From: Vicinamibacteria bacterium
GTDB lineage: Bacteria; Acidobacteriota; Vicinamibacteria; Fen-336
Direction of reading: 5' to 3'
Length of the DNA: 47,742 bases
Assembly: GCA_023701125.1 (NCBI GenBank)
Contig: JAMPXO010000028.1
Coordinates: forward strand, 1 to 47,742
Shown here: positions 1 to 21,295 of the stretch, in pieces
Position numbering within the stretch: position 1 is the stretch's first letter
How the letters are laid out: every line of letters starts with the position of its first letter
Notes under the pieces: generated by a model
Told to the model about the DNA's origin: nothing
Databases searched by the model: none
What the model saw: the letters and a program-made list of their open reading frames with translations, nothing else
Made by a program: the position numbers and the translations under genes

Positions 1-1421
1 GACGCGCAGGCCGCGTCGAGCGCGGCGACGACGCGCTCGTCGGTCGCGTCGGGGGCGCCGCAGCGCAGGTTCTCGCCGACGCTGGTCGAGAACAGGAACG
101 GCTCCTGCTCGACGACGCCGACCTGGCGCCGGAACCAGACGGGCTCGAGTTCGCCGATCGCGACGCCGTCGAGGCGGATCGTGCCAGCGGTCGGCTCGTA
201 GAAGCGCAGCAGCAACCGCGCCAGCGTCGACTTGCCCGCGCCCGAGGGGCCGACCAGCGCCACCAGCTCGCCCGGCGCCAGCTCCAGGTCGACGCCGCGC
301 AGCACGGCGGCGGCGGGCCGCGTGGGGTAGGCGAACGCGACCGCCTCGAAGCGGACCCGGCCGTCGACCCGCGGAATCGTCGTCCGGCCGGGGGCCACGA
401 CCCGCGGGGCGTCGATCACCTCGAACAGCCGTTCCGCGGCGCCGGCGACCCGGGCGCACTCGGCGCCGAAGCTGACCAGGTCGCCGAAACAGCTCGCCAC
501 CAGCTCGGCATACAGGATGAAGGCGACCAGCAGGCCCGGCGAGAGGTCACCCTGCCCGACCAGCCGCGCGCCCGCCCAGATGACCGTGATCAGGGCGACG
601 TCGCCGAGCAGCTTTGCCGCCGCATCGAGTGCCGCACCAGCCGCGACCCGCTGCCGACCCAGCACCAGCGCCCGCTCCAGCGCGTCGCGGTAGCGCCCCG
701 CCTCGGCGGCCTCGGCCGAGAAGGCGCGCACCGTGCGGATGCCCGACAGCGCCTCGTCCGCCACCTGCTGCGAGGCGCCGAACGCGTCCTGGGCGCTGCG
801 CGAGTAGCGGCGGATGCGGCGCGCCGCCAGCCGGAAGGCGAGCGCCAGCGGCGCGCCGGCCACGACCACCAGCGCGGTGAGCGCGGGCGACGTCCAGAGC
901 AGCACCGCCACGCCGCCGATCACGCACACGGCGTCGCGCACCGCGCCCTCGAGATCGCGCCCCAGCGCGTCGTGGACGAGTTCGGCATCCGCCCCCAGCC
1001 GGCCGCCCAGCTCCGCGCTCGAGCGGCGGTCGAAGAACGTGATGTCCTGCTCCAGCAGGCGGCCGAACAGTCGCAGCCGCAGCGCGCCGACGATGCGCAG
1101 GGCGGCGCTCTCGAAGGCATGGCCGCGGAAGTACGTGCCGACGGCACGCAATGCCGCCGCCGCCGCCATCAGCAGCGCCGCGTGGTCCACTCGCCCGGGC
1201 GCCAACGCCTCGTCGATCGCCACCCGCACGAACTGCGGATAGAGCAGGGTGGCCGCCGTGGAGACCAGGATCCAGGTGGTGCCGAAGGCGTACGCGGCGC
1301 GCTCGCGTGCGGCCAGGCGCAGCAGCGCCGTCAGCGCCTCGCGGAAGGAGCCCGCCGCCGCGCCGGCGCTCAGGCGCGCTCGACGATCTCCGGCCGGTAG
1401 CCGGACCGCCAGATCCGCCAC
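1..1421 (-). CDS. ABC exporter, fused permease-ATPase (MsbA-like), 3' end outside window
   Basis: The reverse strand reads as one continuous frame from about 1421 to base 1: a transmembrane domain (first helix around [19 protein letters not shown], later [12 protein letters not shown]) followed by a nucleotide-binding domain with Walker [10 protein letters not shown] and a Q-loop region ([19 protein letters not shown]). The window ends before the LSGGQ signature, so the C-terminus is missing. This fold exports lipids, glycolipids or peptides across the inner membrane. The first non-CTG start in frame is GTG at 1421, which overlaps the end of the licD-like gene by 52 bases; the exact start is uncertain. 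It is the last visible gene of a minus-strand operon with a GT-C glycosyltransferase and a LicD protein, so export of a surface glycolipid is a reasonable inference. Confidence 0.85.
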
Positions 1422-2113
1422 GCCTCGCGCCAGAAGTCGACGCACAACACGCAGGGGACCTTGTGCGGGAAGAAGCACCACTTGTGCAGCCGGTATGTCA
1501 GGTAGCGCTTGCGCAGGAAGCGCTCCGGGTCGTTGGGGCAGGGCAGCAGCGCGCCCTCGAAGCGGATCTGCCACAGCGGCTCCACCCACGCCGTGGGGAA
1601 GTCGTCGAACCAGGCGTCGTGGTAGCGGCGGATGCCGCGGCGGAGCTCGGGTTCGCCGTGCACGAGCAGGCCGTCGCGCTCGATCCACGGCTCGACGTCG
1701 ACGGTCAGCCCGCGATGGAAGATCGCGGTGCGGTTCAGGTTGAGCTCGATCCCGTGCCGCGCCAGCTCGTCGGCGCAAGCTTCCAGCGCAGGGCGGTCCT
1801 CCGCGCGGAACGAGATGTCGCCGTCGTGGTCCCACGGCAGCATGCGGCCGCTGCGGACGGCGCCCAGCAGGTTGCCGTAGTCGAGCCAGTAGCGCACCGG
1901 GTGTTGGGAGACCACCTCGTGGAACGTGCGCACCATGAACGCGATACCCGCGCGGCGCTCCTCCGGCGTGATGCACGGGTCGAACAGGTGTGGCGTGCCG
2001 CGCAGGGCCGCGACCGTCGAGCTCAGCATCGACCACGCGAAGCGCAACGGGCGCCAGGCCAGCGCGGCGCCCAGGGCGGCAACGAGCACGATCGTCGTCG
2101 GCGTCATCTCCAT
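1370..2113 (-). CDS. LicD/fukutin-family phosphotransferase
   Basis: 247 residues. An N-terminal hydrophobic segment (about residues 7-20) is followed by the LicD signature [20 protein letters not shown] and then D95-H-D97-G-D99, the acidic metal-binding triad of this nucleotidyltransferase-like fold. Characterised LicD proteins move phosphocholine from CDP-choline onto sugars of teichoic acid or lipopolysaccharide. The ATG at 2113 is preceded by a TACAAT box (2132 to 2127). The gene overlaps the end of the upstream glycosyltransferase by 10 bases. With PEP mutase and two predicted cytidylyltransferases nearby, the transferred group could be aminoethylphosphonate from CMP-AEP, but that substrate is inferred, not seen. 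Confidence 0.88.
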
Positions 2114-3510
2114 GGTGAACCCGCGGATTGTAGGGCGCGCCGCCGCAGCCCGCGCAGGCCGTGCAGGGCCGCGAAGCCGTGGCCCAGCAGAATCGGGACG
2201 CCCGCGCCGTCCCACGGCAGGTACATCGCCGGCGCCACCGCCGTGTAGGTCGCCACCGTCCACGCCAGGTCGTCGTCGTCCGCCGCCAGCGCCAGCGGCA
2301 ACAGCAGCACCGGGTACCAGACCATGAACCAGCCGAGCGCCAGCGACTGGGTGAGCAGCAGGAACACGAGCGCTCCGTGGACTGCGTCGACCAGGCTGCG
2401 GGTGCGCCAGGCGAGCAGCGCGGCCAGCCCCGCGAGCGCCGGTGCGGCCAGCGCGGGCCAGGCCGCGGCGACGGCGTCGGCGCCGACTGCGCCGGCCGCG
2501 GCCCGCGCGACGAAGCGGGCGACCGCGGCCAGCGAGTTGGCGAGCTGATCGGGGGGGAACGGCAACGCCGCGAGCATCGAGCCGACGTCGAACGGGGCGC
2601 ACGCCACCGCCAGCGCGAGGACCATCGCCACCGCCGCCCCGACCGAGCGGCGCGGCGCGTGGCGCAGCAGGTGGACGAGATACAGGCCGAGCAGCGGCGC
2701 CACCAGGACCTTGACGAGGGCCCCGCCCGCGAGGCACAAGGCGGCGACGCGCTCGTGGCCGCGCCGCGCGAGGAGCAGGAACGCGAGTACGGCCGCCACG
2801 ACCAGCCCGTCGACGTGGGCCTGGCCGCTCACCTCCCACGCCAGCAGCGGATTCCAGGCCAGCAGCACGAAGCCTCGCGCGGCGCCCCCATCTCCGACCG
2901 CGGCACGGGCGGCCGGCACGGCGAGGCCGACGCAGAGCAGCCCGGTGAGCGCCATCACCGCCTTGAACGCGAGCGCGGCCGAGGCAACGTCTCCGCTGGC
3001 CACGGCCACTCGCGCCAGGGCGAGGGCGAGGGGTCCGTAGCGGCTCGGTGTGCTCGCCCAGGCCGGGTCCGCCGCGCTGCGGAACGGATCGTCCGCCGGC
3101 AGCGCCTCCGGGCCGGCGCGATAGGGATCGAGGCCCTGTTCGATCGCTCGCCCGTGAGCGAGCACGGACAACAGGTCGTTCGAGGTCAGCGGCATCGCCG
3201 GCGCCGCACACAAGTGGATCAGCAGCGCCTGGCCCAGCAGGCGCCGGTCGAGTGGCCCGCGCGCCGCGCGCAACGCGTGCAGGTAACAGGCCCCGGCGAG
3301 CGCGATGCCCGCGAACCAGGCGAGTTGAATCAGCGCCTCGGGCCAGGGCGCGAGCGTCGTCAGCGTGTCGAGGCGCCCGGCCAGCGCCGCGCGGGCCCCG
3401 GACGCCAGGGTCGCGAGCAGCAGGCCCGCGGCGATGCCCCAGCCGCCGGGCACGGCCACGGGTGGCGCCGCTTCGCCCTGCGGGTTCACGTCCTCGCCAG
3501 GGCGCGCCAT
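2104..3510 (-). CDS. GT-C/GT87-like membrane glycosyltransferase
   Basis: 468 residues with about ten or more hydrophobic helices. After the first helices comes the segment [19 protein letters not shown] followed by DPY, matching the acidic loop motif (ND...GR...G.nPY) of polyprenol-phosphate-dependent mannosyltransferases and other GT-C enzymes. The enzyme would add a sugar from a polyprenyl-phosphate donor on the periplasmic side. I start it at the ATG at 3510 because a TAAGAT -10 box ends 7 bases upstream; an ATG at 3519 lies inside that box. It heads the minus operon glycosyltransferase, LicD, ABC exporter and is divergent from the dehydratase-like gene. Confidence 0.75.
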
Positions 3511-3523
3511 CGCGGGCATCTTA
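3511..3523 (-). promoter_or_regulatory. -10 box of a leaderless minus-strand promoter
   Basis: TAAGAT (3523 to 3518) is followed by 7 bases and then the ATG at 3510. Transcription starting about 7 bases after the hexamer would begin at or next to the start codon. The box overlaps the oppositely directed TACAAT box by two bases. Confidence 0.55.
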
Positions 3524-3535: not shown

Positions 3536-4771
3536 TTGGCGCCCGCGGTCTTCGTCGGCGAACGTGTGCTCGACCCGCTGCGCGAGCCGGGGCTGCGCGA
3601 CCACTGCCCGACCTGGACGTTCCCGGTGCTGTCGCTCGCGGGGCTCGCCGACCTCGCGGCCGACTGGTGCGAGGAACTCGCCGGTCGACCGCTCAACGGC
3701 CTGTCGGACTTGCGGCCTGCCGGCTGGATCACGTTTGCGACGGGCCCGCGGCGACTGCGGGCGACGCTCCGGGCTCTCGAGGCCGGCGGCCTCGCGCTGG
3801 CCGTGGACGGGCTCGACGGCGTCGATGCGGCACTCTCCCCCTGGCGCCCGCTGGCCGCGGCGACGCTGTGGACGGAGCCGCGGGCCCGCGCCCGTTGGCG
3901 GCCGGCCCCGCTGCGCGGCGCGCAGGCTCAGCCCGACCCCTACGCCGCGGGCGAGCTGTTCCACGGGCCGTCGCTGCAGGTGCTGGGCCGGCAGTGGATC
4001 GGCGACGACGGCGCCGACGTGGAACTCGTCGGCAGTGCCGCGCACGCCACGTCGAGGCTGCGCCAGGACCTGCTCGACGGCGTCGCCCAGGCCGTGCCCG
4101 CCGCCGCGCTCGCGCGCTGGGGCGCCGCGGTCGAGCCGGGGCAGGCGGCGTTTCCGATCCGGCTCGCGGAGCTGGATCTGCGCGGCCCGGTGCCGCGCAC
4201 GAGCGACGCCCGCGCCGAACTGCGCTGGCTCGGTTTCGACGGCGGCGATCGCCGTCACCCACGCGTGCGCGCGCAGTTGCAGGCCGACGGCGCGGTCTTC
4301 ATGGAGCTGGAGCTGGTCTTCCGGTTGCTGCCGCTGGGCCCGCTCGGCGCGCTGTCGGCGCGCGAGCGGCGCGACTTCTGCCGCGACCGGCGGGCGGTGC
4401 CCGGGGCCGGGCTGTCGCGGGCCGCGGGCGCGCAGACTCGACTCGACCCGCGCGAGCTCGCCCGCTGCGACTGGCTGCCCGGCACCGTCGCCGCGCTCTA
4501 CGGCCTGCCGCCGGGCCCCGTGGACCCCCGCGGCGTGGTGGCCCGCGACCACGTGGCGCGCCGCTGCGGGCTCCATCCCTCCGCCGTGCGCCTGGCCGCC
4601 GACGGGGGTTTGGGGGCGGAGGAGCGTTTGCGACGGAGCCCCCATGGGACCGGCGACGGGTTCATCCCGGCGCCGGAACCCGACGGCGTGACCGCGTCGA
4701 CGCCCGGCGGCGAGCAGCGGCTCGTGATCCGCCGCGAGGGCCGCGAGTGGATCGCGGAGGACGCGAGCTAG
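3536..4771 (+). CDS. Polyketide-type dehydratase-like protein with C-terminal PPTase-like remnant
   Basis: 411 residues from TTG at 3536; the start is supported by the TACAAT box 8 bases upstream. I recognise a double-hotdog dehydratase pattern. The N-terminal half has a degenerate HxxxGxxxxP-like segment at H23 (DHCPTWTFPVLS). The C-terminal half has FHGPSLQ (142-148) and a DxxxQ motif D181-GVA-Q185. After SARERRDFCR a region resembling the AAKDAVR part of phosphopantetheinyl-transferase-like tails follows but lacks its lysine. It would dehydrate a 3-hydroxyacyl chain held on an acyl carrier protein, fitting the neighbouring ketosynthase and ACP genes. Its stop codon lies in a CTAG shared with the convergent ketosynthase. 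The last 60 codons contain a REP-like insertion. Activity is uncertain because the histidine motif is not canonical. Confidence 0.6.
   Translation: MAPAVFVGERVLDPLREPGLRDHCPTWTFPVLSLAGLADLAADWCEELAGRPLNGLSDLRPAGWITFATGPRRLRATLRALEAGGLALAVDGLDGVDAALSPWRPLAAATLWTEPRARARWRPAPLRGAQAQPDPYAAGELFHGPSLQVLGRQWIGDDGADVELVGSAAHATSRLRQDLLDGVAQAVPAAALARWGAAVEPGQAAFPIRLAELDLRGPVPRTSDARAELRWLGFDGGDRRHPRVRAQLQADGAVFMELELVFRLLPLGPLGALSARERRDFCRDRRAVPGAGLSRAAGAQTRLDPRELARCDWLPGTVAALYGLPPGPVDPRGVVARDHVARRCGLHPSAVRLAADGGLGAEERLRRSPHGTGDGFIPAPEPDGVTASTPGGEQRLVIRREGREWIAEDAS
4603..4681 (+). repeat. REP-like palindromic element inside the coding sequence
   Basis: GGGGGC (4612-4617) pairs with GCCCCC (4638-4643), and GGGTTC (4658-4663) pairs with GAACCC (4676-4681). 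The 19 bases 4603-4621 recur with one mismatch on the minus strand at 30920-30902. The translated insert (GGLGAEERLRRSPHGTGDG and following) is poor in hydrophobic residues and looks unlike the surrounding protein. Confidence 0.45.
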
Positions 4772-5985
4772 ACGGAGCGGACGGCCAGCACGGCGTTCAG
4801 GCCGCCGAACGCGAACGAGTTGGAGAGGGCGCAGCGCAGCTCGCGCGCGCGGCCCGCGTTGGGCGTGCAGTCGAGGTCGCAGGCCGGGTCCGGCGCCGTG
4901 TAGTTCAGCGTGGCCGGCACGAAGCCCGCGCGCAGCGCGAACACCGTCGCGGCCAGCTCGATCGCGCCGGCCGCGCCCAGGGTGTGGCCGTGAGCCGACT
5001 TGGTCGCGGAGATCGCGAGTCGGCGGGCGTGGGGACCGAACACGTCGTGCAGCGCCCGGGTCTCGCACGCGTCGTTGGTCGCGGTGCCGGTACCGTGGGC
5101 GTTGACGTGGTCGACTTCTTCGGGGCGCAGGCCGCCGTCGGCCAGCGCGGCGCGCATCGCCGCAGCCATGCCCGCCGGGTCGGGGTGGACGAGGTCGCCG
5201 GCGTCGGCCGTCGCGCCGAAGCCGACGATCTCCGCGAGCACCGTCGCGCCCCGCGCCCGGGCGACCTCCCACGCTTCCAGCACGAACACCCCGCCGCCCT
5301 CGCCCAGCACCATCCCGGTGCGGCCGCGCGAGAACGGGCGGCAGGTGTCGGTGGCCGTCACCCGCAGCGCCTCCCAGGCCCGCAGCGAGCCATAGGACAG
5401 CGGCGCCTCCGCGCCGCCCGCGAGCGCGACGTCGACCAGGCCCGCGCGGACCATCTGGAACGCCAGCCCGATCGCGTGGGTGGCCGAAGCGCAGGCGCTG
5501 GTCACCCCGAAGGCCGGGCCGCGGCAGCCGAAGTCGATGGCGATCTGGCTGGTCGCGGAGCTGGCCATCACCCGCGGCACGGTCAGCGGGTGCACGCGGG
5601 CGCCGTCGCGGTACAGCCCGAGCGCCTCGTCGTCGATCGTGCACTGACCGCCGCCGCCCGTGCCGATCAGGACCGCTGCCGACGACAGGGCCGCCGGGTC
5701 GACGCCGGCCTCGGCCACCGCCTCGCGCGCCGCGCCGAGGGCGAACTGGGCGAACGGGTCGAGCTGGGCCAGCCGCTTCTCGCCGAAGCGGGCCAGCGGG
5801 TCGAAGCCGGTGACCGGCGCCAGCACGGGCAGGCGCAGCGGTCCCGGATAGCGCGCCGGGTCGACGGCCACGATGCCGCCACGGCCCTCGTGCAGGGCCC
5901 GTTCGAGCTCGGCGATCGAGCCGCCGAGGCTCGACACGCAGCCGCGCCCGGTGAGGGCGACGCGGCGGCGGACGGCCTCAGCCAT
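4768..5985 (-). CDS. 3-oxoacyl-[acyl carrier protein] synthase, FabF-like
   Basis: 405 residues, the full length of the family. The Cys-His-His triad is visible: C165 in TSACASATHAIG, H297 in NAHGTGTATND and H334 in KSAHGHTLGAAGA. Such enzymes condense malonyl-ACP with an acyl primer in the cytoplasm. The start at 5985 overlaps the end of the ACP gene by 8 bases, so ketosynthase and ACP form one unit. A stand-alone condensing enzyme with its own ACP, a dehydratase-like neighbour and an acyltransferase points to a special acyl chain rather than bulk fatty acid synthesis. That role is an inference from context. Confidence 0.93.
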   Translation of the reverse strand: MAEAVRRRVALTGRGCVSSLGGSIAELERALHEGRGGIVAVDPARYPGPLRLPVLAPVTGFDPLARFGEKRLAQLDPFAQFALGAAREAVAEAGVDPAALSSAAVLIGTGGGGQCTIDDEALGLYRDGARVHPLTVPRVMASSATSQIAIDFGCRGPAFGVTSACASATHAIGLAFQMVRAGLVDVALAGGAEAPLSYGSLRAWEALRVTATDTCRPFSRGRTGMVLGEGGGVFVLEAWEVARARGATVLAEIVGFGATADAGDLVHPDPAGMAAAMRAALADGGLRPEEVDHVNAHGTGTATNDACETRALHDVFGPHARRLAISATKSAHGHTLGAAGAIELAATVFALRAGFVPATLNYTAPDPACDLDCTPNAGRARELRCALSNSFAFGGLNAVLAVRSV

Positions 5986-6244
5986 TCGAGGACGCGGCCA
6001 GGATCCCGCGGACCTTGGCCAGCACGTCTCCGACGGTCGCGAGCGGCTCGTCGCGTTCCATCGGCACCTCGATCTTGAACTCGTCCTCGATCTCGAAGAG
6101 CGCGTTCACGACGTCGAGGGAGGTGATCGCGAGCGACTCCAGTGTCGCGTCGGGTGCGAGCCGGGCGACGTCCACGTGGGCCCCGCGCGCGATCGCGGCC
6201 AGGATGCGGGTGTCGACGTCGTCGGCTTCGGGCGGGGAGGGCAT
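5978..6244 (-). CDS. Acyl carrier protein
   Basis: 88 residues, acidic, with the phosphopantetheine attachment serine at S42 in AITSLDVVNALFEIEDEF; the usual DSL is TSL here. The ATG at 6244 lies 15 bases after a TACACT box (6265 to 6260). The ketosynthase that follows overlaps by 8 bases. The protein carries the growing acyl chain for the adjacent condensing enzyme. Confidence 0.93.
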   Translation of the reverse strand: MPSPPEADDVDTRILAAIARGAHVDVARLAPDATLESLAITSLDVVNALFEIEDEFKIEVPMERDEPLATVGDVLAKVRGILAASSNG

Positions 6245-6259
6245 CGTTGTCGCCGCGGC

Positions 6260-6292
6260 AGTGTACGCCAGCGCTCCGCCCGGGAATACACT
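6260..6292. promoter_or_regulatory. Divergent promoter pair with mirrored -10 boxes
   Basis: AGTGTA at 6260-6265 is TACACT on the minus strand, serving the ACP gene. An identical TACACT at 6287-6292 serves the plus-strand glycosyltransferase, 9 bases before its ATG at 6302. The two boxes form an inverted repeat around 21 bases. Confidence 0.5.
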
Positions 6293-6301
6293 GCCTCCCC
6301 C

Positions 6302-7480
6302 ATGGCCCCGGCTTGGCAACCGCATCGCACGGCCTTGTTTGCCGCTGCCGCGCTGGCAGCCCTGTGCTTCGCCCGCGACGTCGGCTACGCACTCCAGACG
6401 CCGGGCACCGACCTGCAGGGTGCGCTCCTCGGCGCGCGGCTCTTCGTCCAGGGCCAGGACCCGTACTTCACGGCCGACGGCCGGCCCAGCTACGCGGTCA
6501 CGATCTCGCCGCTGCTGCTGCTCGCGCACGTCCCGCTGGCCTTCCTGCCCGAGGCCGCGGCCCGCGGGCTGCACCTGCTCGGCCAGTGGGCGGGCTGGCT
6601 GCTCGCGGTGGCGCTGCTGGCGGCAGGCGCGCCGCCGCGCGCGCGGAGCTGGACGTGGGGGGCCGGCCTGGCGCTGACGGCCGGACACGGCTTCGCGCTG
6701 CACGCCGAGCGCGGGCAGAAGTTCGTGGCGCTGGCGCTGCTGCTGTCCGCAGCGGTCGCCCTCGCGCGCCGACCCGCCCGCGTCGGCGCCGCCGGTGCGC
6801 TGGTCGGACTCGCGATCGCCGCCCGTCCCAGCGCCCTCGTCGCGCTGGCCGCGGCCTGGCGCGACCCGCGCCTGTTGCGCGCGGCGGCGCTGGGAGGCGC
6901 GGTCGCCATCGCTGCCACCAGCCTGCCGCAGGGTCCGGGCATCTGGTGGCGCTACGCACAGGCGATGGAGGCTCACGCGCGCATCCACCTCGGGGCCGAA
7001 CCCGTCGCATGGGGCCTGCACCCCGGCGAGGTCCCGGAAGCGGAGCGCCAGTTCAAGAACCTGCCGGTGGCGGACAGCTCGCTGCTGGAGCTGGGGCGGC
7101 GCCTCGGCGTGCGCATCCCCCCGCTCGCAATGGCCGCGCTCGCGCTCGGTTGTGCGGGGGCCGCGGCGGCCGCCGGCGCTCGGGCGACCGCGGGCGCGAT
7201 GGTGCTCGGCGTCGCCGGGATGGCGGTCGCCGATCTCTTCCTGCCGGCGCCCCGCTTCTCGTATGCGGACGTGCTGTGGGGGGTGCCGCTGCTCGGCCTG
7301 CTTTCCGCGCACGGGCCCGCGGCCCTGCGCGGTCTCCCCGGCGCGGCGATCGCCGTGGGCTTCGTGGTGACGCTGGTGCCAGGGGTCCACCCCGCGGCGC
7401 CGTGGTTCGCCGACGTGTTGCCGACCCTCGGCCTGGGAATCGTCGCCTGGCGGGCGGCGCGCGGCCCGGAGCAACGGTGA
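6302..7480 (+). CDS. GT87-type (DUF2029) polytopic glycosyltransferase
   Basis: 392 residues with about nine to ten hydrophobic helices. The first periplasmic loop has TDLQGALLGARLFVQGQDPY, the acidic and G.DPY signature of GT87/DUF2029 enzymes that use polyprenyl-phosphate sugars. ATG at 6302 follows TACACT by 9 bases. The stop overlaps the GTG of the next gene (GTGA at 7477-7480), so it is co-transcribed with the PlsC-like acyltransferase. Donor and acceptor are unknown. Confidence 0.75.
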   Translation: MAPAWQPHRTALFAAAALAALCFARDVGYALQTPGTDLQGALLGARLFVQGQDPYFTADGRPSYAVTISPLLLLAHVPLAFLPEAAARGLHLLGQWAGWLLAVALLAAGAPPRARSWTWGAGLALTAGHGFALHAERGQKFVALALLLSAAVALARRPARVGAAGALVGLAIAARPSALVALAAAWRDPRLLRAAALGGAVAIAATSLPQGPGIWWRYAQAMEAHARIHLGAEPVAWGLHPGEVPEAERQFKNLPVADSSLLELGRRLGVRIPPLAMAALALGCAGAAAAAGARATAGAMVLGVAGMAVADLFLPAPRFSYADVLWGVPLLGLLSAHGPAALRGLPGAAIAVGFVVTLVPGVHPAAPWFADVLPTLGLGIVAWRAARGPEQR

Positions 7481-8211
7481 CGGCGCTGCTCGAGCGCGCC
7501 CGCTCGGCCGCGCTGTGGGCCTGGGCCTTCACTCTCGTCGGCATCCTGGGCCCGGCCTATCTCGTCGCCGCCCGCTTCTCTCCCGCGCGCGCCCACGAGT
7601 GGGCGCGCCGCCTGTCGCGGGTCGGCCTGCGCGCCTTTGGCGTGCGCCTCGCCGTCGTCGATTGCGGCGGCCGACGCGTGGGCCGGCCGTGCGTCTATGT
7701 CGCCAACCACGTCAACCTGCTCGACCCGTTCGTCTTCGTGATGGCGATCGCGGAGCCGCTGCGGGCGATCGAGGTGGCGCCGCACTTCTCGTGGTGGGGC
7801 TGGGGCGCGCTGGTCCGGCAGGCGGGGCTGATCCCGATCGACTACACGACGACGGGCGGCATCGCGGGTGCCCTGCTGCAGGCGCGGCGCGAGCTGCGGG
7901 CGGGTTTCTCGATCGTGTTCCTGCCCGAGGGCACGCGCACGGTCGACGGCCGCATGAACCCGTTCCGGCCCGGCCCGTTCCTGCTCGCCCAGAAGGCCGG
8001 CGTCGACCTGGTGCCGATGGTCCAGGTCGGTGCATTCGCGGTCAACAACAAGGTCAGCGCCCGCGTCAGGCCCGGCCCGGTCACGCTCGCGCTGCTGCCG
8101 CCGGAGCGCCACGAGGCGATCGCCGGAGAGCGGCCGGACGACGTCGCTGCCCGAGTGCGAGCGCGGATGGAGGCCGCGATCGCGGCCCTCGAGCGTGGCG
8201 AGCGGCCCTGA
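7477..8211 (+). CDS. 1-acylglycerol-3-phosphate acyltransferase family (PlsC-like)
   Basis: 244 residues from a GTG overlapping the upstream stop. It shows the acyltransferase block I motif HX4D (H78-VNLL-D83) and block III FLPEGTR (148-154), plus an N-terminal hydrophobic segment (about 14-33). It would transfer an acyl chain from ACP or CoA to a lysophospholipid or another hydroxyl acceptor at the inner membrane. With the ACP and ketosynthase next door it may put a special acyl chain on a glycolipid. The stop codon is part of a perfect palindrome shared with the convergent gene. Confidence 0.88.
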   Translation: MTALLERARSAALWAWAFTLVGILGPAYLVAARFSPARAHEWARRLSRVGLRAFGVRLAVVDCGGRRVGRPCVYVANHVNLLDPFVFVMAIAEPLRAIEVAPHFSWWGWGALVRQAGLIPIDYTTTGGIAGALLQARRELRAGFSIVFLPEGTRTVDGRMNPFRPGPFLLAQKAGVDLVPMVQVGAFAVNNKVSARVRPGPVTLALLPPERHEAIAGERPDDVAARVRARMEAAIAALERGERP

Positions 8212-8227
8212 GCCGGAGCCGGCTCAG
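8208..8227. terminator. Palindrome holding both stop codons of convergent genes
   Basis: CTGAGCCGG (8208-8216) and CCGGCTCAG (8219-8227) are perfect inverted repeats separated by AG. TGA of the plus gene (8209-8211) and TGA of the minus gene (8226-8224) are symmetric within it. No T-run follows on either side, so a bidirectional terminator role is inferred. Confidence 0.5.
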
Positions 8228-9693
8228 CGCGCGGGCGACACCTCGAACGCCACGAACGACGCGTTCGCGAACGCCGGCCTGCGCTCGCGAGCCCAGTCGA
8301 TCCAGTCGGGGAAGTCGGCCTTGCGCGTGACCAGCAGCTCCACGCCGTGGGACCGCGCGAGCGCCTCGGCCTGGGGCCAGGCCCGGCCGGGGGTGAACAC
8401 CTCGCCGACCCGGGTCGCGAGCCGACGGGTGCCGGGAAAGGCGAGCAGCGAGGGTTGGCTGCCGGCCGCGACGCGCGCGCGGGACAGGCCCGCGAGCCAC
8501 CACGCCACGGGAAAGCCGTTGCGGTCCGCGTTGACGAACACGAGACCCGCGGGCGCACGGGCGGTGATCCAGTCGGCCGCCTGGACATAGGCGCCGTCGA
8601 CGACCCGCAGCCGCTCGAACTCCTGGTTGGCCTCCCGGTCGGCCGCGGCGAGGAAGTGCGCCGTCGCCACCAGCGCGACCGCGCACGCGAGTGCCGGCCG
8701 GTCGTGCCGCGCCAGTCGCTCGAGGCCGACGCCGCAGCCCAGCCCGGCGCCCGCGCACACGAGCGCCAGCATGCGGGGTTCGCCGGTGGCGAGGGTGGAC
8801 CACAAGCCGAGAGCCGTCATCGCACCCCCCGCGCACCACACGGCGCGAGCGCCGTCGCGCGGGCCGCGGTGCAACGCGTACAGGCCGACGGCCACCGCGG
8901 GCAGCAGGCGCCAGCCGGATTCGCCGAAGCCGGCCAGGCCCACGGCGTCGACGAACGACAGGTGCAGGGCGTTGATCGGCGGCGCGTAGCCCTGACTCCA
9001 CAGCGACACCGCGGTCGGCGCGAAGGCGAGCGCCGACGGCAGCCCGATTCGCAGCAGGACGCGGGCGGCACCGGGTTCCGGCCGTGGCAACACGGCGAGC
9101 GCGGCCAGCGCGCACAGCGTCCACAGGTAGTAGGCGTGGTGGCTGAGCGCCACGAAGACGAGGGCGATCGTCGCCCACCGGCGCGCCGCCGGTGCCCGCG
9201 TCTCGACCGCTCGCGCCGCGGCGCACAGTGCGACCAGGCCGAAGGCGACGCCGAAGTTCTGGGGGAAGCCCCCGTTGCACAGCCGGGACACGAGCGGGAA
9301 GGAGGCGCCGGCCTGGACGGCGGCCACGGTCGCGGCCCACGGGCGAACCCCGGCGAAGCCGACCAGCGCCACGTGCATGGCGACCATGAACAGGGCGATG
9401 CTGGCGACGCCCAGCAGCCGGGCCGACAGCAGACCGCCGATGGTCACGTCGCCCACGCCCATCAACAACGGGATCAGCGGCGGGTAGATGTGGGCCGAGT
9501 GCCCGGGGCCATCGGTGTCGGCGCCCAGCAGCATGCGTCCGAACAGCAGCCAGTTGCCGCCGTCGATGCCGGTGGGATAGGGGCCCTGGAGCACCCACAG
9601 GCGGCTCGCCACCAGCGCCACGCCGACGGCCGGCCACGCCAGGGCCGGGAGGCGCGCCAGCGCGCTGACGTTCGGCGGGGCTGCGATCGACAA
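8224..9693 (-). CDS. Polytopic membrane protein, GT-C glycosyltransferase-like
   Basis: 489 residues from TTG at 9693, chosen because a TATACT box ends 8 bases upstream. An upstream GTG-type start near 9744 would run into the divergent gene. It has about ten helices and, after the first, the loop GIDGGNWLLFGRMLLGADTD followed by YPPLIPLLM, like the acidic first loop of GT-C enzymes. A soluble C-terminal part (about 390-489) begins near ADWITARAPAGLVFV, as in PMT/ArnT-like proteins. Sugar donor and target cannot be told from sequence. Confidence 0.65.
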   Translation of the reverse strand: MSIAAPPNVSALARLPALAWPAVGVALVASRLWVLQGPYPTGIDGGNWLLFGRMLLGADTDGPGHSAHIYPPLIPLLMGVGDVTIGGLLSARLLGVASIALFMVAMHVALVGFAGVRPWAATVAAVQAGASFPLVSRLCNGGFPQNFGVAFGLVALCAAARAVETRAPAARRWATIALVFVALSHHAYYLWTLCALAALAVLPRPEPGAARVLLRIGLPSALAFAPTAVSLWSQGYAPPINALHLSFVDAVGLAGFGESGWRLLPAVAVGLYALHRGPRDGARAVWCAGGAMTALGLWSTLATGEPRMLALVCAGAGLGCGVGLERLARHDRPALACAVALVATAHFLAAADREANQEFERLRVVDGAYVQAADWITARAPAGLVFVNADRNGFPVAWWLAGLSRARVAAGSQPSLLAFPGTRRLATRVGEVFTPGRAWPQAEALARSHGVELLVTRKADFPDWIDWARERRPAFANASFVAFEVSPAR

Positions 9694-9709
9694 CGGGCGC
9701 CAGTATAGT
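9694..9709. promoter_or_regulatory. Overlapping divergent -10 boxes
   Basis: AGTATAGT at 9702-9709 gives TATACT on the minus strand (8 bases before the TTG at 9693) and TATAGT on the plus strand. For the plus gene (ATG 9743) a second TANNNT box, TAGCCT at 9724-9729, is closer. Confidence 0.5.
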
Positions 9710-9742
9710 CCGCGTCGCGGTGCTAGCCTGTCGGCGCCCGGC

Positions 9743-10945
9743 ATGCTCCACCCGCCTCACCGCCTCGACGTCTCGCTCGTTCAACTCGCGCGCGCCGCGG
9801 CCTTTCTCGGCTCGCGCGATGCAGCCGCCGCCGCGGCGGCGCTGGAGGCGCTGTGGGACCCCGCGGGGCGAGCGCTGGCTTGCCTGTCGGTGCGCTCGGG
9901 GTTCGATCTGCTGCTCGGCGCGCTGCGACTGCCGGCCGGCAGCGAGGTGCTGGCCTCGGCGCTCAACATCGACGACATGGGAGCGCTGGTCGCGGCCCAC
10001 GGCCTGCGGCTGGTGCCGCTCGACGTCGACCGCGACACGCTCGTGCCGCCGCCGGAGGAGCTGCGCCGCGCGCTGACGCCACGCGCCCGGCTGCTGCTGC
10101 TCGCGCAGCTCTTCGGCGGCCGCCACGACCTGTCGGAGCTGGCGCGGGTCGCGCACGAGCACGGCCTGCTGGTGGTCGAAGACGCGGCCCAGGCCTTCAC
10201 CGGCTTGCCCACCGAGAACCTGCCGGGCGTCGACGTGTCGCTGTGGAGCTTCGGCACGCTGAAGACGGCGACCGCGCTGGGCGGGGCGGTCGCCTGGGTG
10301 GCCGACCCCGCACTGCGGGCGCGGATGCGGGACCGGCAGGCCAGCTGGCCGCTGCAGCCGCGCGCTGCCTACGCGACGAAGCTGGCGCGCACGGCCGGGC
10401 TCGTCGTCGCCCAGCGCCCGCGCGTGTACGGCGCGCTCTCCGCGCTCGCCGGCGCCTGCGGGCTGTCGTTCGACGCCGCCGTGCGGCGGCTGACTCGCGG
10501 TTTCCCTGGCCGCGACCCGGCGCGGCTGCTCGCCGCGCTGCGGCAGCGCCCACCCGCGGCGATGCTGCGCTTCCTCGCTCACCGGCTGCGCCGCTTCGAC
10601 GCCCGCCGCCTGCAGTTGCGATCCGCGGCGGGTCAGCGCGTGCGGGAGGCGCTGGGCCGCCGCGCGATCGGCCCGCGCATGCAGCGGCAGACGAGCTGGC
10701 TGGTGGCGGCCCGCGAGCGCGTGCCCGACGAGTTGCGCGCCCCGCTGCGGGAGCGCGGGTTCGAGATCTCGGACGCGTCGAACGTCGTGGCGTTCGGCGG
10801 CGCCGAGGCGCGGCGACTGATCGACGGCATGGTCTACGTGCCGGCGTACCCGGAGATCGGCGACGCCGAACTGGCCGGGTTGTGCGCGACGCTCTCGTCG
10901 CCGCGAGCGGAAGCGGCGCTGGTGCCGGTGCCGGGCAGCGAGTAG
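9743..10945 (+). CDS. DegT/DnrJ/EryC1-family PLP aminotransferase
   Basis: 400 residues. The fold-type I pattern of the DegT group is visible: VVEDAAQAF around D147 (ring nitrogen contact) and SLWSFGTLKTATALGGAV with the PLP lysine at K174. DegT enzymes aminate nucleotide-linked keto-sugars or similar ketones. A C-terminal arginine-rich segment (about 230-330) is longer than usual. It sits divergent from a membrane glycosyltransferase and convergent with the GlpD-like gene, whose 3' end overlaps it by 112 bases on the other strand. The substrate is unknown; an amino-sugar or aminated lipid headgroup would fit the locus. Confidence 0.8.
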   Translation: MLHPPHRLDVSLVQLARAAAFLGSRDAAAAAAALEALWDPAGRALACLSVRSGFDLLLGALRLPAGSEVLASALNIDDMGALVAAHGLRLVPLDVDRDTLVPPPEELRRALTPRARLLLLAQLFGGRHDLSELARVAHEHGLLVVEDAAQAFTGLPTENLPGVDVSLWSFGTLKTATALGGAVAWVADPALRARMRDRQASWPLQPRAAYATKLARTAGLVVAQRPRVYGALSALAGACGLSFDAAVRRLTRGFPGRDPARLLAALRQRPPAAMLRFLAHRLRRFDARRLQLRSAAGQRVREALGRRAIGPRMQRQTSWLVAARERVPDELRAPLRERGFEISDASNVVAFGGAEARRLIDGMVYVPAYPEIGDAELAGLCATLSSPRAEAALVPVPGSE

Positions 10946-12501
10946 CGGGCGGCCCACAGCGCCAGGTAGTCCGCTTGTTCGCGGCGCCAGCGCGCGTCGT
11001 CCCAGCCCAGCTCCTCGGCGCACAACGCCTGGACCCGCGGCAGCGCGGCGCGCCCGCCGTCCGCCATCGACAGGCCGAGCCGCACCCGGCGCAGCAGCAG
11101 GTCGTCGAGGTGGACCACCGACTCCGCGCGCGCGGCGTGGCGCAGCTCGGCCCACGACATCGGCAGGCCCGCGATCGACTCCAGCTCGCCGGGCCGGGCG
11201 CACGCCGCCACCGCCGCGGCCTCGCCGCCGTAGCGCGCGACGAGCCGCGCCCAGGTGTCCACGCTGACCTCGCGCTCCGCCCCGGCCACGGGCGCGCCCG
11301 CCCCTGCCGCGGGGACCGGCGGTGCCGGTGACGGCAGCCTGCGCCGCGCCCGCGCCAGCACTTCGCGGGCGATGCGGCGGAACGTCGTCAGCTTGCCGCT
11401 GGCCACCGTCAGCAACCCGCGGTCGTCCCAGATGTGATGGGAGCGGGCCTCGTCGGACGGACGGGCACCCGTGCCCAGCACGCCGCGCACGCCGGCGAAC
11501 GTGGCGATCACGTCCGCCGGCCCGAGCCCGACCGAGGGCAGTTCGGCGGCGAGGCCCTCGAACAGGTAGTCGACCTCCTGCGGCGTGATCGCCGGCTCGT
11601 CCCCCAGCGGCAGTTCGTGGTCGAGGTCCGTGGTGCCGACCAGGCTGACGCCCTGCCACGGGATCGCATAGATCGGCCGCCGGTCCCGGACGTGGTGCAG
11701 GGCCACCGCCTGACCCAGGGGTAGCCGGGCCGCCGGGATCACGATGTGGCTGCCGCGCAGCGGCCGCAGCCGCTGCGGCGCGCCGAGGCCCGCGCGCAGC
11801 GCGTCGGCCTCGGCACCGGTCGCGCTGACGACGACGCGGGCGTGGAGGTCGCGCTGCGCTCCGCTGAGGCGATCGCGGAGCCGCGCTCCCCGGACCCGTC
11901 CGCCCGTCACCAGCACCTCGACCGCCTCGACCTGGTTGAGCGCGAGGCCGCCGGCGCGCCGGCCCTCCGCCAGCACCCGCAGCACCAGTCGCGCGTCGTC
12001 CGTCGCGGCGTCGTCGAATGCCACGGCCCCGACGAGGCCGGCGCCGGACAGGCCCGGCACCAGCGCCTGCGCCGCGGCCGGCGCGTGGAAGCGGTGGGTC
12101 CAGCGCCCGGTGCCGAGCGCGTAGATCGTCGAGGCGAACTCCAGCTCCCAGCGCAGCGTCGGCCGCGACGCCCGGGCCACCGCCACGAAGCGCAGCGGCA
12201 CCACCAGGCCGGCCAGCTCGCGCAGCAGGCGCTCGCGCTCGCGGACGGCCTCGAGCGTGGCGAACAGCCGTCCCTGGCGCAGGTAGCGCATGCCGCCGTG
12301 GACCAGCTTCGACGACCGGCTCGAGGTGCCCCAGGCGAAGTCGTGGCGCTCGACGAGGGCGACGCGGAAGCCGCGGCGCGCGGCCTCGGAGAACACGCCG
12401 GCGCCGACGATGCCACCGCCGATCACCAGCAGGTCGAGCGGGCCCTCGAGCTGGTCCCAGGCCGTGCGGCGGGCATCGTTCGCGGGCGGGCCCGGCGGCA
12501 T
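10834..12501 (-). CDS. FAD-dependent glycerol-3-phosphate dehydrogenase (GlpD-like)
   Basis: 555 residues. The N-terminus has the FAD-binding Rossmann motif VIGGGIVGAG (about 26-35) and then SSRSSKLVHGGMRYL, the GlpD family hallmark. The C-terminal part contains the DUF/HTH-like cap of this family. It oxidises sn-glycerol-3-phosphate to dihydroxyacetone phosphate and feeds electrons to quinones at the inner membrane. The ATG at 12501 lies 7 bases after a TAACGT box. The family homology ends near YLALWAARYSLP; the last roughly 35 residues are low-complexity and are read from the strand opposite the DegT gene, which looks like stop-codon loss. Confidence 0.9.
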   Translation of the reverse strand: MPPGPPANDARRTAWDQLEGPLDLLVIGGGIVGAGVFSEAARRGFRVALVERHDFAWGTSSRSSKLVHGGMRYLRQGRLFATLEAVRERERLLRELAGLVVPLRFVAVARASRPTLRWELEFASTIYALGTGRWTHRFHAPAAAQALVPGLSGAGLVGAVAFDDAATDDARLVLRVLAEGRRAGGLALNQVEAVEVLVTGGRVRGARLRDRLSGAQRDLHARVVVSATGAEADALRAGLGAPQRLRPLRGSHIVIPAARLPLGQAVALHHVRDRRPIYAIPWQGVSLVGTTDLDHELPLGDEPAITPQEVDYLFEGLAAELPSVGLGPADVIATFAGVRGVLGTGARPSDEARSHHIWDDRGLLTVASGKLTTFRRIAREVLARARRRLPSPAPPVPAAGAGAPVAGAEREVSVDTWARLVARYGGEAAAVAACARPGELESIAGLPMSWAELRHAARAESVVHLDDLLLRRVRLGLSMADGGRAALPRVQALCAEELGWDDARWRREQADYLALWAARYSLPGTGTSAASARGDESVAHNPASSASPISGYAGT

Positions 12502-12514
12502 CGCGCGGACGTTA
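12502..12514 (-). promoter_or_regulatory. -10 box of a leaderless minus-strand promoter
   Basis: TAACGT (12514 to 12509) lies 7 bases before the ATG at 12501 of the GlpD-like gene. Confidence 0.5.
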
Positions 12515-12545
12515 GCACGCGCCCTGCGGGGCGCCGGCGACCCGG

Positions 12546-12560
12546 TATCATCGGCGGCCC
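12546..12560 (+). promoter_or_regulatory. -10 box of a leaderless plus-strand promoter
   Basis: TATCAT at 12546-12551 lies 9 bases before the TTG at 12561 of the GT4 gene. No ribosome binding site is visible. Confidence 0.5.
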
Positions 12561-13664
12561 TTGAAGATCGCGCTGCTCTGCGACTGGTTCCTGCCCAAGG
12601 TCGGCGGCATCGAGCTCCACCTGAACGACCTCGCCCGTGGCCTCGCCGGCCGCGGCCACGACGTGCGGGTGCTCGCCACCTGCCCCGGCCCGGCGCAGGT
12701 CGACGGCATCGCGGTCGAGCGGCTGCCCGGGCTGCGGATGCCGCGCTGGGGATTCTCGCTGTGCGACGCGACCACGCGGGCGGCGCTGCTGGCGGCGATC
12801 GCGCGCCACGGCAGCGAGGTGGTCCACGCCCACGGAGGCACGTGGACGCCCGCCGGCTACGGCGGGGCGTGGTTGTGCCAGCGCCGCGGTGTGCCCACGG
12901 TGCTCACCGTCCACTCGGTGCTCGACGGGCTCGGGCCCGTGCTGCCGGCGCTGGCCGCGGTGATCGGCAGCGCGGGCTGGAACCTGACCTGGAGCGCCGT
13001 CGGCGAGGACGTCGCCCGCAGCCTGCGGCCCCACGTCGGCGGTCGCCCCGTGCGGTTGCTGCCGAACGCGGTCGACGACGCGTTCTGGCGGGCAGGCGCG
13101 GTGAGCGCGGCGCGCGGCGCAACCGTCGAGGTGGTGGCCGTGATGCGCCTCACCCGCCGCAAGCGTGGGAGCGAGCTGCTGCGCGCGTTCGCCCGTGCCC
13201 GGGCTGCGAGCCGGGTGCCGATCCGGCTCACCCTCGTCGGCGACGGCTTCGAGCGCGGGCGGCTGGAGACGCTGGCGCGGCGACTGGCGCTCGGCCCCTC
13301 TGCCCGGATCCTCGGCTTCCGCCCGCGGCCCGAGGTGCGCGACTTGCTGGCCTGCAGCGACGTCTTCGTGCTGCCCTCGACTCGCGAGTCGTTCGGGATC
13401 GCGGCGCTCGAGGCGCGCTGCGCGGGGCTGCCGGTCGTCACGTACCGGCGCAGCGGTGCCGCCCGCTTCCTCGAGCACGAGCGCTCGGCCCTGCTGGTCG
13501 ACGACGACGCGGGCCTGACCGCGGCCCTGGTCCGCCTCGCGGAGGACGGGGCCCTGCGGCAGCGGCTCCGCGCGCACAACACGACGGCGCCCAACCCCTA
13601 TCCCTGGCCGGCGGTGCTCGACGCCCACGAACAGGCCTACCGCGACGCGCTGGCCGGGCGCTAG
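12561..13664 (+). CDS. GT4-family glycosyltransferase (PimA/PimB-like fold)
   Basis: 367 residues from TTG at 12561, giving MKIALLCDWFLPKVGGIELH, the usual GT4 N-terminus with the glycine-rich loop. The retaining GT-B EX7E motif is E276-SFGIAAL-E284. VVHAHGG (about 87-93) and VVAVMRLTRRKR are family landmarks. It transfers a sugar from a nucleotide donor on the cytoplasmic side, typically onto a lipid acceptor. It precedes the phosphonate genes by 33 bases and may be co-regulated with them, although the PEP mutase has its own -10 box. Confidence 0.88.
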   Translation: MKIALLCDWFLPKVGGIELHLNDLARGLAGRGHDVRVLATCPGPAQVDGIAVERLPGLRMPRWGFSLCDATTRAALLAAIARHGSEVVHAHGGTWTPAGYGGAWLCQRRGVPTVLTVHSVLDGLGPVLPALAAVIGSAGWNLTWSAVGEDVARSLRPHVGGRPVRLLPNAVDDAFWRAGAVSAARGATVEVVAVMRLTRRKRGSELLRAFARARAASRVPIRLTLVGDGFERGRLETLARRLALGPSARILGFRPRPEVRDLLACSDVFVLPSTRESFGIAALEARCAGLPVVTYRRSGAARFLEHERSALLVDDDAGLTAALVRLAEDGALRQRLRAHNTTAPNPYPWPAVLDAHEQAYRDALAGR

Positions 13665-15311: not shown

Positions 15312-16468
15312 ACGCGGCGTTCACCCCGGAGCGGCTGCTCGAGGCGTTGCGCGCGGCCGGCGTGCGCGAGCTGGCCGGCGTGCCGTGCTCCATCCTCGAT
15401 CCGCTGCTCCGCGTCGCGGAGCAACGTGCCGAGGTCCGCTACGCGGCGTGCAGCGTCGAGGGCGAGGCGGTGGCCTTCGCCTGCGGAGCCTGGCTCGCCG
15501 GTGCGCGCGCTGCCGTGCTGTTGCAGAACTCCGGCCTCGGCAACACGGTCAACCCGCTGGCCTCACTGGCCCTGCCCTATCGGGTGCCGCTGCTGATCGT
15601 CGCCTCGTGGCGTGGCGAGCCGGGCCGCGAGGATGCCGTCCATCACGCCGCGATGGGCGCCGCCACGTTGCCGCTGCTCGCCGCCCTGGAGATCCCGCAC
15701 CTCGTGCTGCGTCCCGGCGCGTGCGACCTCGAGCCCGCGGTCGCCGCCCTCGCGGCCCGGGCCTGGGCCGAGCGCCGGCCGGTGGCGCTGGTCGTGCCGC
15801 GGGGCGCCCTCGCCGGTGCCGCCGCAGCCGCCCCCCAGCTCGGGGAGCGGCCGGCGGTGATCGCGGAGCCGCCCGTCCACTTCGGCGGCGGCCCCCGGCC
15901 GTCGCGGCGGGAGGCGGTCGCCGCCTTCGCGACCACGTTCGCCGGCGCGGCCGTGGTGTCGACCACGGGCTTCGCCTCGCGCGAGCTCGCCGACGCCGGC
16001 GTCCGCGCCTCGCACTTCTACATGCAGGGCTCGATGGGTTTCGCGCTGGCGATCGGGCTCGGTGTCGCCCGCGTCCGGCCAACCCGCGACGTGGCCGTGC
16101 TCGACGGCGACGGCGCGCTGCTGATGCGGCTCGGGAGCCTGGCCACGGTCGGGGCGCTGGCGCCGCCTCGGCTCGCCCACGTGGTGCTCGACAACGGTGC
16201 CTACGCATCGACCGGCGGCCAGCGCACGGTGGCGGCGAGCGTCGACTTCGCGGCGGCCGCCCTGGCCTGCGGCTACGGCGCCGCCGCCGATTGCGACGGC
16301 AGCGCCGGCCTGGCCGCCGCCCTCGCCTGGTCGCGCGAGCGGATGGGGCGCGGGCCCTCGCTGCTGCGACTGCGGATCACGGCCGCCGAAGGACCCGTGC
16401 GCGGGCGGCCGGAGGTGGCGCCCGAGGTGATCGCCGACGCCTTCCGCGGCTTCCTCGCCGCGGGCTGA
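15308..16468 (+). CDS. aepY: Phosphonopyruvate decarboxylase
   Basis: 386 residues, the family's usual length. GTG at 15308 overlaps the aepX stop (GTGA), so the two are translationally coupled. It is a thiamine diphosphate enzyme: the activating glutamate lies in SVEGEAVAFA (E51/E53), and the ThDP/Mg motif runs from GDG (267-269) to DNGAY (N296). It converts phosphonopyruvate to phosphonoacetaldehyde and drives the unfavourable mutase reaction. Cytoplasmic. Confidence 0.93.
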   Translation: MNAAFTPERLLEALRAAGVRELAGVPCSILDPLLRVAEQRAEVRYAACSVEGEAVAFACGAWLAGARAAVLLQNSGLGNTVNPLASLALPYRVPLLIVASWRGEPGREDAVHHAAMGAATLPLLAALEIPHLVLRPGACDLEPAVAALAARAWAERRPVALVVPRGALAGAAAAAPQLGERPAVIAEPPVHFGGGPRPSRREAVAAFATTFAGAAVVSTTGFASRELADAGVRASHFYMQGSMGFALAIGLGVARVRPTRDVAVLDGDGALLMRLGSLATVGALAPPRLAHVVLDNGAYASTGGQRTVAASVDFAAAALACGYGAAADCDGSAGLAAALAWSRERMGRGPSLLRLRITAAEGPVRGRPEVAPEVIADAFRGFLAAG

Positions 16469-21174: not shown

Positions 21175-21188
21175 GGCTGGCGATGGTA
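21175..21188 (-). promoter_or_regulatory. -10 box of the CHASE4-decarboxylase-transaminase operon
   Basis: TACCAT (21188 to 21183) lies 8 bases before the ATG at 21174, consistent with a leaderless operon transcript. Confidence 0.5.
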
Positions 21189-21295
21189 GCGCGGGCCCCG
21201 GCGATTTCGACCGGGACGCGGGGATGGGCGACAATGAGGGGTTGCTGCCCAGCGCTGGAGCCTCGATGGGCGGCGAGAGGAGATCGTCCGCCCCG

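Follow-up and report, generated by a model that had tools for sequence, protein, structure and literature searches.

What acyl chain, if any, would a handful of fatty acid-type genes standing among glycosyltransferase genes serve in a Vicinamibacteria bacterium (phylum Acidobacteriota)? The stretch of DNA that we analyzed, hereafter the window, spans 47,742 nucleotides and is the whole of contig JAMPXO010000028.1 (C155) of a 5.4-Mb draft genome (assembly GCA_023701125.1). Toward its left end it encodes a dehydratase (DH), a FabF-like ketosynthase (KS), an acyl carrier protein (ACP), and a PlsC-like acyltransferase, which an initial annotation had described as a mini fatty acid or polyketide cassette next to glycosyltransferases. 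A small acyl-chain cassette agrees with what we found, but that description missed a 2-aminoethylphosphonate (AEP) context at 13.7 to 18.9 kb. We propose, with about even confidence, that the four proteins form an acyl-chain cassette that is dedicated to an AEP-phosphonate glycolipid and encoded in its gene cluster; the cassette would work like the rhizobial acpXL-lpxXL cluster. New here are three points: what the dehydratase is, which clade the ketosynthase belongs to, and the phosphonate context.

Acyl-chain and phosphonate genes in one stretch

Codon-based calling gave 40 genes in the window; missed genes and sequence past the left contig end fall outside this coverage. All 40 were searched against Pfam (in batches of 10, at E values of up to 0.1, 0.01, 0.001, and 0.001) and 18 of them against NCBIfam. 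The genes of the proposed cassette are the following.

3536..4771, plus strand: free-standing polyketide synthase (PKS)-type DH, DH4-type homologue, 411 amino acids (aa) from a TTG start (tblastn, alignment, AlphaFold2 [AF2] model, fold and profile matches)
4768..5985, minus strand: FabF-like KS with a Cys-His-His-Lys active site, convergent with DH with a 4-bp overlap (PF00109 and PF02801, E values of 5e-42 and 5e-34)
5978..6244, minus strand: ACP with an SLD phosphopantetheine site and an 8-bp overlap with KS (PF00550, 32.5 bits, over the cut-off of 20.8)
7477..8211, plus strand: PlsC-like acyltransferase with NHVNLLD and FLPEGTR motifs and a 4-bp overlap with the GT87-type gene (PF01553, 66.4 bits, over the cut-off of 23)

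Codon statistics, Pfam, homology, and fold bear out this part of the initial annotation. All four are open frames with coding-like base use, and reading of the sequences and alignments found their active-site residues intact (in DH, the His and the Asp). Codon statistics and tblastn homology rule out DH as a chance open reading frame. ACP and KS are probably cotranscribed, because their genes overlap by 8 bp. The top match of PlsC among relatives is 33% identical.

The phosphonate genes extend to a junction at which similarity to two congeners (G001 and G002) begins.

13698..15311, plus strand: phosphoenolpyruvate (PEP) mutase (PepM) fused to a MobA-like nucleotidyltransferase, with an EDKAFPKRNS motif (PF13714 and PF12804; TIGR02320, 312 bits, just below the cut-off of 319.55)
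15308..16468, plus strand: phosphonopyruvate decarboxylase (Ppd) (TIGR03297, 331 bits, over the cut-off of 312.5)
16472..16996, minus strand: 174-aa protein with no family match
16990..18120, minus strand: AEP transaminase (NF010006, 308 bits, over the cut-off of 296; TIGR03301, 354 bits, under 360.8)
18117..18866, minus strand: PntC-like nucleotidyltransferase (PF12804, 57 bits, over the cut-off of 27)
18867..18890, no strand: junction; right side (from 18886 or 18891) syntenic with both congeners, left side different (blastn, tblastn)

The PepM motif fits the EDKxxxxxNS of PEP mutase, and the nucleotidyltransferase family PF12804 was met in two window proteins, the PepM fusion and the PntC-like protein. 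Judged from these family matches, the stretch is predicted to encode AEP synthesis by the PepM-nucleoside triphosphate (NTP)-transferase, Ppd, the AEP transaminase, and the PntC-like protein. The other genes left of the junction are as follows.

3..1421, minus strand: ABC exporter of the MsbA/TAP type, truncated at the contig end (PF00664 and PF00005; TIGR02204, 357 bits, below the cut-off of 780)
1370..2113, minus strand: LicD-like phosphotransferase, candidate phosphonate-attaching enzyme (PF04991, 57.7 bits; NF045866 Mf1, 35.9 bits, below the cut-off of 225)
2104..3519, minus strand: MptB-like polyprenol-phosphate-sugar-dependent glycosyltransferase (NF038066, 51.8 bits, over the cut-off of 40)
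6302..7480, plus strand: GT87-type membrane glycosyltransferase, starting at ATG 6302 by manual count or at TTG 6335 as called (PF09594, 33.3 bits, over the cut-off of 25)
8224..9744, minus strand: protein with multiple transmembrane segments, possibly a GT-C glycosyltransferase, a label that is unproven (no Pfam or NCBIfam match)
9743..10945, plus strand: DegT-type (sugar) aminotransferase (PF01041, 66 bits)
10834..12501, minus strand: flavin adenine dinucleotide-dependent glycerol-3-phosphate dehydrogenase-like (GlpD-like) protein (PF01266 and PF16901; NF008899, 224 bits, below the cut-off of 360)
12561..13664, plus strand: GT4 glycosyltransferase (PF00534, 97 bits)

Read from left to right, the genes are those of the cut ABC exporter, the LicD-like protein, the MptB-like glycosyltransferase, DH, KS, ACP, the GT87 glycosyltransferase, PlsC, the multiple-transmembrane protein, the DegT and GlpD-like proteins, the GT4 glycosyltransferase, PepM-NTP-transferase, Ppd, the 174-aa protein, the AEP transaminase, the PntC-like protein, and a pyridoxal phosphate (PLP) decarboxylase, followed by unrelated genes. 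Glycosyltransferase genes do lie on both strands, as first annotated (MptB-like on the minus strand, GT87 and GT4 on the plus strand).

The available part of PMC6697681 connects cell-surface phosphonates with PepM-NTP-transferase fusions and with PntC genes, near which LicD-like genes lie. Since the AEP enzymes, the nucleotidyltransferases, and the LicD-like gene share one stretch here, following the gene logic of that paper, a phosphonate-glycolipid product is supported. The window resembles such PntC-type AEP clusters in its PepM-NTP-transferase fusion, Ppd, AEP transaminase, PntC-like and LicD-like proteins, and glycosyltransferases; unlike them, it adds a dedicated ACP, KS, DH, and PlsC, and the word "acyltransferase" is absent from the main text of PMC6697681.

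PepM was matched at an E value of 1e-40 or better in 14 of the 396 genomes sampled from the phylum, the window genome included. Among the stretches around the other 13 genes, one from the same class (G028) has PepM, Ppd, AEP transaminase, and PntC-like matches, another (G380) has PepM, Ppd, and AEP transaminase, and two (G202 and G187) have PepM, Ppd, and NTP-transferase-like matches. In G028 (L133:583-1695 and 8437-13147), the set lies ∼7 kb from a gene resembling 8-amino-7-oxononanoate synthase (AONS) or serine palmitoyltransferase (SPT) and is a possible phosphono-sphingolipid lead. No SPT-like family match that would point to a phosphono-sphingolipid was found in the window, and the two AONS-like genes elsewhere in its genome could equally be BioF or KBL.

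Comparison with the two congeners revealed that the cluster, of at least 18.9 kb, is not at this junction in either. Right of 18886-18891, synteny with both runs at 81 to 88% identity in the main blocks; it breaks off within the PLP decarboxylase gene (18863-20293), close to the 3′ end of that gene, which we rejected as a cluster member because both congeners have it beside other genes. Left of the junction, the genes of the congeners are different ones, similar between the two. Searches of both whole drafts found neither DH nor PepM (PepM only at E values of 1e-5 and 2e-6), KS and PlsC had only paralogues there, and the other cluster genes were compared within the 11 to 14 kb left of the junction. 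Two observations count against a clean island: at ∼12 kb from the junction, G002 contains a further, unrelated-looking ACP-KS pair (L218:248-1834; KS ∼44% identical along 279 aa), and L217 has a match to 32 aa of the ABC exporter. We conclude that the 18.9-kb cluster is probably a gained or swapped island; an assembly join is less likely. Right of the junction, a CHASE4-domain gene (20290-21174; region 20294-21265) was matched in neither congener within the stretches compared. Farther on (27132-42721), the window holds four MacB/FtsX-type permeases (∼800 aa each), a TonB-dependent receptor, ABC ATPases, and an HlyD-like protein; the permeases are reminiscent of the orphan permeases that are duplicated in Acidobacteria.

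The dehydratase and its relatives

The dehydratase had been singled out for a DxxxQ motif and a noncanonical histidine motif. The canonical PKS DH motif is HxxxGxxxxP, from which the window sequence HCPTWTFPVLS (beginning at His23) does depart, with W for G and one extra residue relative to CurH. The same sequence is of the HxPTxTxPxLP type, the family signature of the Pfa3-type DH4 domain, so that what looked like an irregularity is the signature of a DH4-type family. His23 and Asp181 are invariant in an alignment of 13 rows (A1), comprising the window DH and 12 of the 15 loci from a search of named genomes (L031, L035, and L036, all from Henriciella, were omitted as redundant). The His is kept in all 42 DH rows (40 of them different), in 40 by pattern and in 2 by eye, and the DxxxQ (D181-Q185) is unique to the window among the 37 rows with the Asp pattern, the others having DxxxH.

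The AF2 model of DH (mean pLDDT of 78; residues 356 to 411 under 50) has the double-hotdog fold that the initial annotation named as its structural check. Foldseek matched it to the MlnB DH at an E value of 1.2e-14, and fold matches in the PDB reached Z scores of up to 23.8; the best 50 PDB matches listed were all PKS DHs, related double-hotdog domains, or PKS proteins holding them. A profile search matched DH to CurH (E value of 2.8e-9) with the catalytic His and Asp paired and the window motif opposite W-DHR-VYDTPVIP; Asp181 aligned with CurH, PksJ, and CurK, and His23 with CurH and CurK. Assuming no gap, the mutated H978 and H996 of the CurJ and CurK structures land on model residue 23, and the PpsC H959F structure would place the active His at residue 22 instead. 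Against the Pfam family PS-DH (PF14765), DH scored 14.3 bits, under the gathering cut-off of 23.7; against a Terriglobia Pfa-like protein, tblastn gave an E value of 3e-64 and 40% identity over ∼350 aa.

The 15 matching loci have frames of 839 to 2,738 codons, several cut by contig ends. In L022 and L025, two KS stretches and FabA-like domains precede the DH4-type domain, which in L022 is also followed by an acyltransferase domain (Pfam); in L033, it comes after KS, AT, and FabA-like domains and is itself without a Pfam match. According to the available part of PMC6731297, which deals with the Minicystis rosea type of polyunsaturated fatty acid (PUFA) synthase, Pfa3 has the order DH4-AGPAT, and mutation of H2270 abolished the product effect of an inserted DH4. 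We infer from the domain order, which agrees with this DH4-AGPAT order, and not from the M. rosea sequence, that the matching domain of L022 is the same as the M. rosea Pfa3 DH4. The window DH is a free-standing homologue of the Pfa3-type DH4 domain. It is like the Pfa3 domain in being of PKS type and, presumably, of the same family, and its conserved His would correspond to the reported H2270; it differs in being a separate 411-aa protein without KS, CLF, or FabA domains and in having DxxxQ rather than DxxxH.

The open frame of 480 codons in the window contains DH alone. We scored the best few first-look candidates per genome (5 for DH in the phylum, 9 in the class, 6 in the phylum of L026, and 7 for the KS profile), so that absences are weaker than in a full scan. 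Among the other 59 of 60 close-relative genomes, only the two congeners matched DH; these matches were rejected as relatives, since they cover only parts of residues 266 to 404, a low-complexity C-terminal region with many such matches in the window genome itself. The phylum sample of 396 genomes held two other near-full-length matches, in frames of 3,311 and 2,799 codons, and one weak fragment. Of 193 genomes of the class, 8 matched DH, near full length only in the window genome, G424 (2,799 codons), and G511 (1,756 codons), the rest being partial. In the phylum of L026, 82 matching places were found in 76 of 282 genomes; six of the frames were shorter than 900 codons, and their matches all begin no more than 462 bases from a contig start, consistent with truncation. 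No other clear free-standing DH4 was found among the candidates scored in these incomplete samples. Nor did the literature surveyed report a free-standing DH4 or a fatty acid synthesis cassette in a phosphonate cluster, in searches that were not aimed exactly there and left most subscription journals uncovered.

The ketosynthase and its carrier protein

KS is 44.1% identical to the housekeeping FabF of the same genome, and ACP is 26% identical to its AcpP. Among the models tried, KS scored best against FabF (TIGR03150, the FabF equivalog), with 388 bits against a cut-off of 493.75, which the housekeeping FabF passes at 649. It scored 262 against PRK09116 (cut-off, 470) and 223 against PRK09185 (cut-off, 407), which we take to be models of arylpolyene-type ketosynthases. 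The comparison with PUFA and arylpolyene enzymes that had been suggested for KS was thus carried through in trees for the former and by NCBIfam scores for the latter: PUFA-type ketosynthases stand far from the window KS in two trees and are ruled out, and an arylpolyene type, of which the trees held no sequence, is disfavored by those scores.

A two-sequence profile, built from the window KS and a relative in G007, picked out a higher-scoring group of ketosynthases in the phylum, from which we fetched the 10 places ranking 2 to 11 by score (rank 1 being the query genome); they are not a random sample. The genome G007 belongs to the window's family; its two KS places agree with those of G895, which was returned by a search centered on the genome of L022, from Terriglobia, so that the window is most likely of that phylum, Acidobacteriota. 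KS forms a long branch in the first tree, from which L069 (264 aa) was dropped. The second tree combined 15 of the 34 earlier KS rows, the full housekeeping FabF, and 10 clade rows and placed the window KS in an acidobacterial clade of FabF paralogues (12 rows; support, 99/98; identity of up to 53%). In all 10 fetched loci an ACP gene lies directly upstream of the KS gene. In three (L201, L203, and L205) a lipid A-type acyltransferase (Lip_A_acyltrans) directly follows KS, in three (L202, L204, and L206) there are a convergent NAD-epimerase and an SPT/AONS-like gene, and four have no clear lipid-anchor gene; Pfam backs all three acyltransferases, all three PLP enzymes, and a single epimerase. 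Such a FabF paralogue with its upstream ACP beside lipid-anchoring enzymes is possibly an unrecognized specialized acyl-chain module of acidobacteria. The window shares with the pairs of L201 to L206 the KS clade and the ACP-KS order, unlike the rest of its set: no match to the window DH, PlsC, LicD, or phosphonate proteins was found there within the fetched stretches. Elsewhere in the same family, translations from G012 (L175:4564-10463) read as a KS, an ACP, and a short-chain dehydrogenase/reductase (SDR)-type protein near a glycosyltransferase and a polysaccharide-deacetylase-like gene.

Proposed pathway and its alternatives

The reactions that we propose, together with their order and their product, would be the following. 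ACP would carry the acyl chain, and the FabF-like KS would add C2 units from malonyl-ACP. A housekeeping FabG, encoded elsewhere, would reduce the 3-keto group, and the DH4-type enzyme would remove water; the enoyl group would then be either reduced by a putative housekeeping enoyl reductase (ER) or retained as a double bond. The PlsC-like enzyme may transfer the chain to a glycerol- or sugar-containing acceptor, with a glycan built by the MptB-, GT87-, and GT4-type enzymes. AEP would be made by PepM, Ppd, and the AEP transaminase, activated by a nucleotidyltransferase, and attached by the LicD-like enzyme, and the ABC exporter would move the product out.

No Pfam match to a ketoreductase (KR), an ER, or a short-chain dehydrogenase was found among the 40 called genes, in agreement with the initial annotation, and the borrowing of KR and ER steps that it put forward is plausible; the short modification that it named as the other option is conceivable. 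One cluster of the genome encodes PlsX, FabD, a FabG-like protein, AcpP, and FabF, and a Pfa (PUFA-type) synthase lies on C193; since the genome holds both the FabG-like gene and the KR of this synthase, a KR is available to the cassette. A PUFA synthase set (KS-MAT-ACP-KR, CLF, FabA, and ER together) is not in the window by Pfam. The rhizobial acpXL-fabZXL-fabFXL-lpxXL cluster for very-long-chain fatty acids offers a precedent: in the available parts of PMC11901934 and PMC5613085, its gene lists name no KR or ER, and most name a dehydrogenase. Like that cluster, as described there, the window would bring a dedicated ACP, dehydratase, KS, and acyltransferase into a putative surface-glycolipid locus, a match of enzyme classes with no claim to membership by sequence. 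Unlike it, the window has a PKS-type DH in place of FabZ, a PlsC-like enzyme in place of a lipid A acyltransferase, and one KS; its cassette has no dehydrogenase, its genes lie on both strands, and phosphonate genes adjoin them.

A dedicated cassette is supported by the KS clade, because 6 of the 10 fetched loci adjoin lipid A acyltransferase- or SPT-like genes. Several points weigh against it. The order ACP then KS is also that of housekeeping acpP-fabF, in this genome too, and by itself the pairing therefore shows no more than that the two genes descend from a pair of this kind. The long branch of DH may mean an altered function, and the four genes are spread over both strands and make up three or more transcription units. 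Finally, tblastn gave no match at an E value of 1e-3 to the window KS, ACP, DH, PlsC, LicD, or glycosyltransferases in the 13 stretches (3 to 20 kb, three of them short contigs of 3 to 12 kb) around the other PepM genes of the phylum.

The best placed of the alternatives, though in our view unlikely, is that KS, ACP, and DH produce a short acyl group, either polyketide-like or unsaturated, and that this group tailors not the membrane anchor but the glycan or the head group. The lack of a KR or ER match in the window, a dehydratase of PKS rather than FabZ type, and the KS, ACP, and SDR-type gene near a glycosyltransferase in L175 would all suit such a group, but a PlsC-like acyltransferase belongs to the set, and the lipid A-type acyltransferases or SPT-like enzymes beside 6 of 10 clade relatives speak for a lipid anchor.

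Second, ordinary fatty acids might anchor the lipid, with KS, ACP, and DH being unrelated or decaying neighbors brought in together. This improbable reading draws on the long branches of DH and KS and on the lack of conserved co-occurrence in the 13 PepM stretches; the intact active sites of all four proteins, their open, coding-like frames, and the tight packing or overlaps of the genes argue against decay.

Third, and more improbable again, the lone DH4 could act in trans on the organism's own Pfa synthase, which has neither a DH4 nor an AGPAT domain, and change its product, which PlsC would transfer. The synthase on C193 (L079:7138-15645 and L082:201-7016) comprises a PfaD-like protein, PfaA (KS-MAT-4xACP-KR-PS-DH), and PfaC (two KS stretches, AT, and FabA domains), and in blastp (E value of up to 1) PfaC matched neither DH nor PlsC of the window; it has no DH4 or acyltransferase match at its end. 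Insertion of DH4 into a Pfa3 lacking it is reported to have changed the product, and H2270A to have reversed this (PMC6731297, available part). Against a trans-acting role, the cassette brings its own ACP and KS, and both congeners, whose drafts contain Pfa-sized frames with a KS, gave no full-length DH4 match. The window PlsC resembles ordinary PlsC at least as much as it does Pfa acyltransferase domains. That it is an AGPAT detached from a Pfa protein is not supported: it matches the acyltransferase domain of the giant L022 protein only at an E value of 0.006.

Last and least probable, the left 18.9 kb could come from another organism through draft misassembly, as the stop of congener homology at 18886-18891, the like genes on the other side in both congeners, and a window that is a whole contig might suggest, but the PLP decarboxylase and PntC-like genes overlap by 4 bp at the junction, GC content is alike on both sides (0.74 to 0.78 left versus 0.71 to 0.77 right, in 2-kb steps), contamination is given as 1.15%, and even a misassembly would leave the gene content of the cluster unchanged.

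We tentatively suggest, as a possibility that we hold with less confidence than the cassette itself, a phosphonolipid or phosphonoglycolipid pathway of a new type. In it, one recently gained cluster would make the AEP head group and, besides, a special acyl chain of its own that is possibly unsaturated or very long, with DH4 recruited as a free-standing enzyme to a dedicated ACP-KS pair. How phosphonates are joined to lipids and glycans in bacteria is largely unknown, according to the available part of PMC6697681, and this could be tested in a laboratory host with a compact cluster in which the genes for the head group and for the acyl chain may stand together. A DH4 that is free-standing by nature would also be useful for probing the domain's effect on double bonds in PUFA synthases, where it has been described inside very large proteins.

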